A stretch of 21,389 nucleotides of DNA from a virus. The stretch is taken from positions 1 to 21,389 of the IMG/VR virus record IMGVR_UViG_3300005056_000113. One strand, given 5' to 3'. The notes under the pieces are model-generated. The model worked only from the letters and a program-made list of their open reading frames with translations. It did no database searches and had not been told where the DNA came from. Positions 14,313 through 16,688 of the stretch are shown piece after piece. The position numbers and the translations under genes were made by a program. How positions within the stretch are numbered: the stretch's first letter is position 1; each line of letters starts with the position of its first letter.

Positions 14313-15224
14313 CTATATTTTGCGTTGAATGCCACCAAAGGCACTGAACAAGGATTTAAAGAAATTGGAGAATTCCAGTGTCATCACCGCAAAGTCACTA
14401 TCAAACTGATCGGCGTAGCTCTCTGCATCAGATTCACCCGCCTTTTCCATAACCATATCGGTGAACTTGATTCGCTTTAGGGTTAGGTCATTCTCAATGA
14501 TGCAAGTCAGGGCATCTTTCCAAAATACACCCAGCTTCTGCACTTGCTTTCCCGCGGCTAAATTTGCTGCCAACTCATTAGAATATAGGTCCTGTCCTTT
14601 ACACCGGATTACATTGTCGTCCTCTGCTGGGTTATACAGCTCACACTCTTGATCGATTTCGAAATCATCTGCTGCCTTTTGGTGCTGGAGCCAATTGGTC
14701 ATCACCTCACTAGGGATGTTTACAGTGTTAGGTAGGATGACTGGTAGCGATTCAATGCTGTTGCGCAGGAACCCTAATAACTCCTCTGCCTTGTTTGCAC
14801 TGGAGCAATTCACCACTAATAGATTTTCTGTTGGTGATATATAGGCGAATAGCGTTGACGACCGACAGAAGGCTTTAGGCAGTAGCGATAGCGTCACCTC
14901 GTCTTTTAGCTGCAATCGCTCTTTTCTGAACACCTTGCTCCCCTGCTTTTCTTCAAGTTCGTCAATTTTCTCCTGTACGGCTTCATTGATCACTGAGGCA
15001 GGCAATATCTTTTCCTCCTTCTTGGCACAGATCATTGTGTAGTCGCCTATGGTATGGGTTAGCATCTCCCCATGCTTGCCTAATGGTGGAACCCATCCGT
15101 ATTGTGATTGGTCTGCTTTGCCACACGGGTGAAACAAATGCTCCTGCAATTTTTCTTCTAGCTGCTCAGGCGTTAATGCGAATTCTTTGGTGAATCTGTA
15201 CAGACGAATATTTTTAAACCACAT
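14313..15224 (-). CDS. rdgC: RdgC-like recombination-associated protein
   Basis: The ATG at 15224, with AAGGA 8 nt upstream, gives 303 aa, the usual RdgC length. It begins MWFKNIRLYRFTKEFALTPE, close to cellular RdgC, and keeps FHPCGKADQSQYGWVPPLG and a C-terminal SDFAVMTLEFSNFFKSLFSA. RdgC is a ring-shaped DNA-binding protein known to inhibit RecA-promoted strand exchange in gammaproteobacteria. A phage copy would guard replicating DNA or bias recombination. An in-frame extension up to 15377 is rejected because it lies wholly inside the upstream gene. It overlaps that gene by 11 nt. It lies in the nin-like accessory region with other nucleases, so a phage recombination module is likely. Confidence 0.9.
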   Translation of the reverse strand: MWFKNIRLYRFTKEFALTPEQLEEKLQEHLFHPCGKADQSQYGWVPPLGKHGEMLTHTIGDYTMICAKKEEKILPASVINEAVQEKIDELEEKQGSKVFRKERLQLKDEVTLSLLPKAFCRSSTLFAYISPTENLLVVNCSSANKAEELLGFLRNSIESLPVILPNTVNIPSEVMTNWLQHQKAADDFEIDQECELYNPAEDDNVIRCKGQDLYSNELAANLAAGKQVQKLGVFWKDALTCIIENDLTLKRIKFTDMVMEKAGESDAESYADQFDSDFAVMTLEFSNFFKSLFSAFGGIQRKI

Positions 15225-15864
15225 TTTCAGTTTCCTTTTTAAATTTGTATTGCTCAGGCAGGTATCCCGCCACCCCCATATCATCAGCCCAATCAAATAA
15301 CACTCTTGGTGGAACTTGATTCCAACTGTCATAACCAAATTTCTTCTTGAGCTTTTCCCCGGCCCACTCCTTGACATAATCCACCGCCTGCTGCTCGAAC
15401 CAGTCTTTCCCGCCTACGGCAATGTAACCTTGGGAATGCTGCAACGCATGCAAGGAACGCAACAAAGGTATCCCGCTAAACTTAGGCTTTATTCCAGTTC
15501 CGCTACCGTTAGCAATCCCCCGATAGTGTGCGTATTCTATGCGGTCACCGTCATAGCCCTCTCTGCCAGATGAGGCGCACTTGTTTGGGCCTTTACACCA
15601 CTTTTGGTATTCGGCATCGGAACCAATAAATTCATACAATTCTCTCGTCTCAAAAAATTGGCTTTCCTGTAAGGCAATAGCTTGCATGCCATAGGAAGCT
15701 GGCTGGTACTGCAATGGAACCACCCCCAAGGGCTGACCTTCTAAAATGACTAACTCAAGCGTTTTAGGGTATTCGGCCGTCACTACGTCTATCCATATGC
15801 GAGTCATTCCATTAGGTAGATGCTTGTGACCAATTGTTTTGGCTGTTAATGCTAATTCAGTCAT
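15214..15864 (-). CDS. DUF968/Ref-like HNH-type phage protein with altered metal motif
   Basis: This 216-aa protein has a Shine-Dalgarno-like GGGGGCGG 4 nt before its ATG and overlaps the methyltransferase stop as ATGA. Residues ~90-170 recall the HNH core of phage DUF968 and RecA-dependent nuclease (Ref-like) proteins: a Cys pair (Cys90, Cys96), EYAHYRGIANGSGTGIKP (His113), SGIPLLRSLHALQHSQG (His139, His143), then GGKDWFEQQ, VKEWAGEKL and a C-terminal WNQVPPRVL. In relatives the second block normally reads PLCxxHHxLQH; here Cys135 and His138 positions are both Leu. Metal binding or catalysis may therefore be changed. Residues 1-70 form a beta-rich domain with no clear match. Neighbours rdgC and a methyltransferase fit a DNA-metabolism role. 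Confidence 0.6.
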   Translation of the reverse strand: MTELALTAKTIGHKHLPNGMTRIWIDVVTAEYPKTLELVILEGQPLGVVPLQYQPASYGMQAIALQESQFFETRELYEFIGSDAEYQKWCKGPNKCASSGREGYDGDRIEYAHYRGIANGSGTGIKPKFSGIPLLRSLHALQHSQGYIAVGGKDWFEQQAVDYVKEWAGEKLKKKFGYDSWNQVPPRVLFDWADDMGVAGYLPEQYKFKKETENVV

Positions 15865-16688
15865 GCTGCCGCCCCCATAATCGCCCTGCCTATCATTTCA
15901 GGAATTTGAGGAACTACCGCGTTACCTAGCCTTGCTAATCTAAGTCTGTCCATCCGACGGGAAACCCCATCATCTGCTCCACGAAGCGCGGGTTCGGTAA
16001 GGTCGAATCCGTCTCTGAAATTCTCAGAACCTCTTCTAAATTCCGTTTGTTGTTTAAGTAGGTGCGCGACTTTGCCGCACCGTTTGCTGTGCTTACTCTC
16101 GGGGTGGGCAGGTATTTCAACTCCGCTAATGCTTTTTCCAGATTCCTGTTCTTGTCCCCTAGCCTTGAGGGGGTTATGTGTCCCGTCATCCCTGTTCGCG
16201 GGGTAGGCAATAATCCAAACTCTGTCCCTATGGTGGATTGCGCCAACGTACGCAGCCGATATACAGTGCCATTCAGCATCGAGCCCGATCTCGGCCAAGT
16301 CATAGAGAAACTTGGCAAACCATCGCCCATTATCTCCAGTAATGAGCCCTGAGACATTTTCAAAAATTGCATATCGTGGCAAACACTCGCTAATAATTCG
16401 CAGCATTTGTTTGTATAGGCTTGATCGATCGCCATCAAATCCGTCTTGCTTTCCACTGATACTAAGGTCTTGGCAGGGAAACCCCCCACACACAACGTCA
16501 ACTGTTCCTCTGTACTCTGTCGCATCTAACAACCTCACATCTTCATGGATTTTCACGTCAGGCCAATGTTTTTTTAACACTGCTCGAGCATGAGCATCAA
16601 ATTCACAGAACGCTATTGTTTCCATTCCAGCTCTCTCAAGCCCTAACGAAAAACCACCAATGCCAGAAAACAAATCCAATACCTTCAC
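15861..16688 (-). CDS. C5-cytosine DNA methyltransferase
   Basis: This 275-aa protein shows the ordered motifs of m5C methyltransferases: I (LDLFSGIGGFSLGLE, AdoMet binding), IV (CGGFPCQDLSISG, catalytic Cys72), VI (FENVSGL), VIII (RDRVWII), and X (LGNAVVPQIPEMIGRAI). The target-recognition region between VIII and X is short (about 75 residues) and polar (KARGQEQESGKS, KHSKRCGK), unlike a full-size one. It would methylate cytosine in phage DNA, plausibly to escape host restriction; no partner endonuclease gene is adjacent. The start is GTG in a GTGA overlap with the upstream gene, with TGGGGGTG about 7 nt before it. A second long frame overlaps it on the same strand (see 15935-16525). Confidence 0.92.
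   Translation of the reverse strand: MKVLDLFSGIGGFSLGLERAGMETIAFCEFDAHARAVLKKHWPDVKIHEDVRLLDATEYRGTVDVVCGGFPCQDLSISGKQDGFDGDRSSLYKQMLRIISECLPRYAIFENVSGLITGDNGRWFAKFLYDLAEIGLDAEWHCISAAYVGAIHHRDRVWIIAYPANRDDGTHNPLKARGQEQESGKSISGVEIPAHPESKHSKRCGKVAHLLKQQTEFRRGSENFRDGFDLTEPALRGADDGVSRRMDRLRLARLGNAVVPQIPEMIGRAIMGAAA
15935..16525 (-). CDS. Overlapping ORF inside the methyltransferase gene (WPRSG/LPTP family)
   Basis: In a different frame of the same strand, 196 codons are open and begin with an ATG that has GAGGT 6 nt upstream. The product carries WPRSGSMLNGTVYRL (77-91), LLPTPR (105-110), LPTPR (139-143) and NPRFVEQMMGFPVGWTDL (178-195). These are the motifs of a family of small phage proteins often annotated as methyltransferase or hypothetical, usually with the closing phrase NPRFVEWxMGxPxGWT. 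GFPAKT near the N-terminus is the other-frame reading of the catalytic GGFPCQD block. Both frames keep family-typical text over the same bases. Either it is a true overprinted gene or the family is partly a database shadow of methyltransferases; sequence alone does not decide. Confidence 0.45.
   Translation of the reverse strand: MRQSTEEQLTLCVGGFPAKTLVSVESKTDLMAIDQAYTNKCCELLASVCHDMQFLKMSQGSLLEIMGDGLPSFSMTWPRSGSMLNGTVYRLRTLAQSTIGTEFGLLPTPRTGMTGHITPSRLGDKNRNLEKALAELKYLPTPRVSTANGAAKSRTYLNNKRNLEEVLRISETDSTLPNPRFVEQMMGFPVGWTDLD

Follow-up and report, generated by a model that had tools for sequence, protein, structure and literature searches.

Results

Two nested reading frames at the methyltransferase locus

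The DNA analyzed here, a stretch of 21,389 nucleotides (IMG/VR virus record IMGVR_UViG_3300005056_000113, positions 1 to 21,389; "the window"), carries a gene for a C5-cytosine DNA methyltransferase, and a second open reading frame is nested entirely within it. We call the product of the longer frame alpha and that of the shorter frame beta. The features of the locus are as follows.

15861-16688, minus strand: alpha, catalytic subunit of a C5-cytosine DNA methyltransferase; 275 aa, GTG start, motifs I to VIII and X
15935-16525, minus strand: beta, putative overprinted subunit with motif IX; 196 aa, ATG start, frame +1 relative to alpha; based on the open reading frame, its relatives and selection tests
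16532-16536, minus strand: Shine-Dalgarno sequence GAGGT of beta, 6 nt before the beta ATG, read from the sequence
16467-16487, minus strand: catalytic motif IV, dual-coded; GGFPCQD in alpha and GGFPAKT in beta, from both translations
16253-16297, minus strand: beta WPRSGSMLNGTVYRL over alpha DLAEIGLDAEWHCI, from alignments; a trough of synonymous change (0.226 at 4-fold sites)
16196-16210, minus strand: beta LPTPR, copy 1, from the sequence; LPTP region aligned in relatives
16097-16111, minus strand: beta LPTPR, copy 2, from the sequence and the LPTP alignment
15939-16181, minus strand: alpha residues 170-250, without a confident fold (pLDDT below 50 nearly throughout)
15947-15994, minus strand: beta NPRFVEQMMGFPVGWT, assigned as C5-methyltransferase motif IX by hhalign to canonical enzymes and single-chain relatives
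15906-15929, minus strand: alpha motif X, LGNAVVPQ, conserved columns in alpha alignments

The two starts are offset by 163 nt, which places beta in frame +1. An earlier note, made from the sequence alone, had described this second frame as open for 196 codons from an ATG with GAGGT 6 nt upstream, and its coordinates are exact. The motif correspondences that it listed also hold base for base: GGFPCQD with GGFPAKT, DLAEIGLDAEWHCI with WPRSGSMLNGTVYRL, and RGADDGVSRRMDRL with FVEQMMGFPVGWTDL. At 16467-16487, GGGGGGTTTCCC reads as GGFP in both frames, so that the same bases give alpha and beta a common tetrapeptide. Alpha residues 170-250 are the alpha-frame reading of the bases in which beta encodes its LPTP region and motif IX.

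The neighbors of the gene include head genes, a DnaB-like helicase and a member of an RdgC-like exonuclease family; no restriction gene was recognized among the neighbors tested. The RdgC-like match (phrog_724; window 14313-15377, minus strand) starts at residue 52, a methionine. Because of this, the start of the 14313-15377 ORF is probably listed too far upstream, and its overlap with 15214-15864 is probably mostly spurious.

Relatives of alpha and beta

Alpha matches PF00145 over residues 1-183 only (E = 1.8e-47) and phrog_363 over its full length. Beta matches phrog_1008 (E = 5.9e-21), a family labeled "DNA methyltransferase" whose entry, as returned, does not mention the position of an overprinted motif IX subunit. 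Scans of beta and 104 relatives against Pfam returned no family, the window's beta matched no NCBIfam model, and PDB sequence searches with beta and with a beta profile gave no match.

Relatives of beta, with identities down to about 30%, occur in records of cyanophage, Sulfitobacter, Bacteroides, Acinetobacter and mycobacteriophage. When IMG/VR loci were chosen by alpha, a beta-profile match was present in frame +1 in 157/157, half of these loci having been chosen by the window's alpha alone. When loci were chosen by beta, every one overlapped an alpha, and both frames were open in all of these beta-found relatives. A search of the window's own phage record returned only the alpha/beta gene itself, and E. 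coli DNA searched with a divergent relative as the query gave no match. From these comparisons, the overprinted arrangement is conserved across very diverse phages.

The pair also varies in size and context. In L018, both frames are open, alpha for 434 codons and beta for about 360, and in L010 an apparent single-base frame change moves both frames together. A Peregrinibacteria MAG (L019:1378-2856) has a long polar insert in its alpha ORF (493 codons); the second frame stays open across this insert (452 codons). L076:133-1952 holds a tandem pair of overprinted methyltransferase/beta sets, the second with additional WPTP repeats. At L272:4473-5894 (minus strand), a single ORF runs from motif IV directly into beta (WPQWGLMRNGE...LNPTWVEKLMGWP), then into an unrelated insert, and then into the alpha C-terminus; it is an apparent deletion/insertion hybrid.

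Most of the public records that we checked do not annotate beta. The second frame is open and alpha stands alone in the records of phiGT1, Nitzel, S-H1, Acinetobacter phage ABMM1 and a Bacteroides fragilis plasmid, for the last of which we used the PLSDB gene table, which is incomplete by design.

Selection on the second frame

Might the second frame be open by chance? When codons were redrawn from alpha's own usage without changing the alpha protein, the expectation for this frame was 6.8 +/- 2.1 stops, and it was open in 0 of 2000 resamplings. Among relatives, we used a null simulation in which alpha was kept and synonymous codons were mutated at the rate seen outside the overlap. The beta frame contained 0 stops, against 192 expected. 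Beta-frame identity was 0.61, compared with 0.45 under the null, and 49 of 56 pairs lay above z = 2.

In 57 independent pairs of relatives, codons for an unchanged alpha residue differed in 27.4% of cases inside the overlap versus 40.8% outside it, and the value was lower inside in 50 of the 57. At 4-fold sites, 27.4% were changed inside and 48.7% outside (57 pairs). This suppression extends exactly over the length of beta. The 4-fold rate was 0.486 before beta, 0.388 over beta residues 1-50, 0.226 at the WPRSG region, 0.300 at the LPTP region, 0.178 at motif IX and 0.465 past the beta end; the WPRSG region and motif IX are thus the two strongest troughs in alpha. Control single-frame methyltransferases (the L333 family) displayed no such dip (0.240 at the N-terminus and 0.225 in the middle).

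The internal start is conserved as well. An open +1-frame ATG with a Shine-Dalgarno sequence before motif IV was found in 104 of 202 alphas, compared with 20.4 +/- 3.6 under synonymous resampling. In several relatives, the codons for WPEV in alpha contain the Shine-Dalgarno sequence of beta.

The earlier note had proposed that a real dual-coding pair might exist, to be refuted by frequent stops in the second frame of relatives or by a lack of excess constraint at sites synonymous in the methyltransferase frame. Stops were absent, constraint was strong and the internal ATG with its Shine-Dalgarno sequence was conserved. We conclude from these sequence comparisons that beta is a real, conserved gene under selection.

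Motif IX lies in the beta frame

The note had also stated that the methyltransferase frame keeps every catalytic motif. This is correct for motifs I to VIII and X, but motif IX is missing from that frame. The conserved C-terminus of beta, NPxFVExMMGFPxGWT, aligns to canonical motif IX, RRLTPxECERLQGFPDxWT, in a short hhalign match of 25 columns (E = 2.6e-5, Prob 75). Against single-chain phage enzymes, beta aligns at the same motif IX position with E = 3.9e-10 and Prob 97.

Because any motif IV-VI casts a shadow that the N-terminus of beta can match, beta-profile matches alone were not taken as proof of beta, and we asked instead which frame carries motif IX. In 187 distinct enzymes, motif IX was in the alpha frame in 20, in +1 in 94, in +2 in one and in both frames in none; the remaining 72 had no motif IX in any frame by the patterns used, and in 53 of these the +1 frame was open. 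Where motif IX was in +1, the second frame was stop-free in 87/94, and the alpha frame had no motif IX in any of these 94 relatives. Where motif IX was in the alpha frame, the second frame was open in 0/20, a set dominated by one lineage.

Individual loci illustrate both states. L302:2898-4109 (plus strand) and L278:156-1256 (minus strand) carry RRLTPxECERLxGxPDGWT, a textbook motif IX, in frame +1 and motif X in the alpha frame. They form a second branch of overprinting, with S(P/L)AKT..., W(P/S)NSG... and a recognition-like region, LSPKACAGILRRA/LSAKAASGILRRA, in frame +1. At L077:1992-3044, the alpha frame holds LNPDWVEWLMGYPISWTD before motif X, and the second ORF is cut to 177 codons; as judged from its sequence, this locus is a natural frame exchange of motif IX. 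In the single-chain enzymes L457 and L458, motifs VIII and X flank a match, in the frame of alpha, to positions 106-198 of the 212 in the beta profile; these enzymes lack the N-terminal half of beta. In three divergent loci of isolate prophages (L412, L415 and L421; about 1400-2330), the +1 (or +2) frame ends in a motif-IX-like WLSG(S/K)ERL(S/T)MMGF(A/S)xxWM; motif X seems to have switched frame as well in L415 and L421.

Structure predictions

AlphaFold modeled alpha with very high confidence over residues 1-165 and the C-terminal helix, and with values below 50 over nearly all of residues 170-250. The Foldseek matches of alpha to M.HhaI and M.HaeIII span only the catalytic domain (about 164 columns). 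Modeled alone, alpha thus has no predicted folded recognition domain of its own. From the extent of the PF00145 match and the AlphaFold model, it does not combine motif IX and a recognition domain in one chain, as a single-chain enzyme would. These predictions support the suggestion of the earlier note that the overlap could account for this enzyme's short, polar recognition region.

Beta modeled alone gave a poor prediction (mean pLDDT 61), and a structural search with this model found no fold match. A model of this quality is what a partner-requiring subunit might give. Because of it, the case for beta as the target-recognition (TRD) element is drawn from its position and from single-chain relatives.

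Discussion

Comparison with known split enzymes

In M.EcoHK31I, the small gene sits in an alternate frame within the large gene, an arrangement that beta shares. This enzyme is a C5-methyltransferase of two polypeptides with the specificity YGGCCR, and the title of Lee, Kam and Shaw (1995) states that two proteins are required. Its motifs I-VIII and X are in the larger polypeptide and motif IX only in the smaller, and both are needed (PMC3404938). Alpha resembles the large subunit in having motifs I-VIII and X and in lacking motif IX, its PF00145 match ending at residue 183. Beta resembles the small subunit in carrying motif IX, which in L302 and L278 is canonical in +1. The likeness concerns the described motif partition of M.EcoHK31I (sequence X82231). 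The predicted recognition domain of M.EcoHK31I has been placed in the large polypeptide (PMC3404938). For alpha modeled alone, AlphaFold finds no fold at residues 170-250. M.EcoHK31I belongs to a bacterial restriction-modification system, while the gene described here is a phage gene without a recognized restriction gene among the neighbors tested.

M.AquI likewise has its catalytic motifs and motif IX on separate polypeptides (PMC3404938). Its motif X is on the small subunit, and its variable region is split. The separation is as in alpha and beta, but motif X differs: here, LGNAVVPQ is in the alpha frame.

The Corndog-type mycobacteriophages (Catdawg, L003) resemble the M.AquI partition. Cresawn et al. 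2015 (PMC4351075) described the overlap in Cluster O mycobacteriophages, with coding potential in both frames, and were undecided among two products, a frameshift, a hop and an intron for Corndog gp6/gp7. As in our family, the frames of Corndog/Catdawg gp6 and gp7 overlap and an ORF with WPTSG...MMGWPDGW follows an ORF with motifs I-VIII. However, their overlap is only about 209 nt, both ORFs are annotated and motif X is in the second. The halophage phiH, cited by the same authors, has a single long Dcm. We also considered as a parallel the out-of-frame HNH insertions in phage methylases described with ShiLan (PMC11855218) and set it aside; an inserted mobile element is a different phenomenon.

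A probable two-subunit enzyme and its alternatives

We think it very probable that the locus encodes a two-subunit C5-methyltransferase of M.EcoHK31I-like organization, with the motif IX subunit overprinted on the catalytic subunit. Alpha would be the catalytic subunit, contributing SAM binding, the PCQ nucleophile, ENV, motif VIII and motif X. Ribosomes would also initiate at the internal ATG, 163 nt into alpha, using its own Shine-Dalgarno sequence, and would produce beta from the +1 frame. Beta would supply motif IX together with a variable region in which the determinants of target recognition are expected to lie, and the two proteins would assemble into one active heterodimeric enzyme. 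Translation of beta, heterodimer formation, DNA recognition by beta and the biological role are all points that we infer. The enzyme most likely methylates the phage genome, for self-protection or as an orphan modification; self-protection seems the likeliest role because no recognizable restriction gene was found among the neighbors tested.

Perhaps the second frame is simply an untranslated shadow of the methyltransferase, open and conserved-looking through the conservation of alpha? Part of the beta N-terminus does lie over conserved motifs IV-VI and would resemble itself for this reason, as the null identity of 0.45 reflects. Yet the count of stops, the excess identity, the synonymous suppression and the conserved Shine-Dalgarno sequence all contradict a shadow, and the second frame is never open where motif IX is in the alpha frame. 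We therefore regard a shadow as exceedingly improbable. A single fused product made by programmed frameshifting is scarcely more credible, even though GGGGGGTTTCCC, with GGFP in both frames, is present as a candidate site in the window and frameshifting was among the options left open for Corndog gp6/gp7 (PMC4351075). We rejected programmed frameshifting: a shift at GGFPC would yield a product lacking motifs VI-VIII, and a late shift would lose motif X, which the alpha frame encodes. The internal ATG and Shine-Dalgarno sequence, moreover, occur far above chance frequency, and a fused product would leave the constraint on the N-terminal half of beta unexplained. For this family, the internal-start and selection evidence favors two products.

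It is very unlikely, finally, that beta is a separate protein (a regulator, an anti-restriction factor or a targeting factor) that merely overlaps a methyltransferase active without it. Single-chain enzymes have nothing that corresponds to the N-terminal half of beta, SPAKTS...WPRSG..., and this half is itself constrained, as a separate function would predict. Against this, the very motif that alpha lacks is in beta, and the second ORF is never intact where motif IX is in the alpha frame. The earlier note had raised the possibility of an unknown partner of the enzyme. That label does not fit: the C-terminus of beta, NPRFVEQMMGFPVGWT, is motif IX, and the arrangement matches the two polypeptides of M.EcoHK31I. 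The note had also opposed a real pair to a shadow or frameshift derivative of methyltransferases. Beta appears to be both half of a functional pair and a displaced piece of a C5-methyltransferase, comprising the recognition region and motif IX, and these possibilities do not exclude each other.

A two-subunit enzyme of this kind probably arose when frameshifts moved the recognition and motif IX segment of a single-chain enzyme into +1 and left motif X behind in the alpha frame. The displaced ORF would then have gained an upstream start and been extended over the catalytic motifs. We tentatively suggest that the N-terminal half of beta (SPAKTS...WPRSG...NGxxYxL) could be a domain born by overprinting on motifs IV-VIII that is now an essential interface or recognition element; a large fraction of the phage genes annotated as single "Dcm" methyltransferases would then be half an enzyme, with the other half concealed in the same bases.

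Significance

The two-polypeptide kind of enzyme was already known from M.EcoHK31I. New here are its breadth, the evidence of selection and an answer for the Corndog-type mycobacteriophages, a question that is addressed with sequence evidence. As a case of overprinting, the family is unusually clear and widespread, and what the overprinted protein does can be predicted. Among the cytosine methyltransferases of phages and plasmids that are annotated as one protein, many appear to be only the catalytic subunit, with the recognition subunit, usually unannotated, in the +1 frame of the gene. Codon optimization of the annotated ORF would destroy beta, and an inactive enzyme would be expected when such a gene is cloned and assayed.
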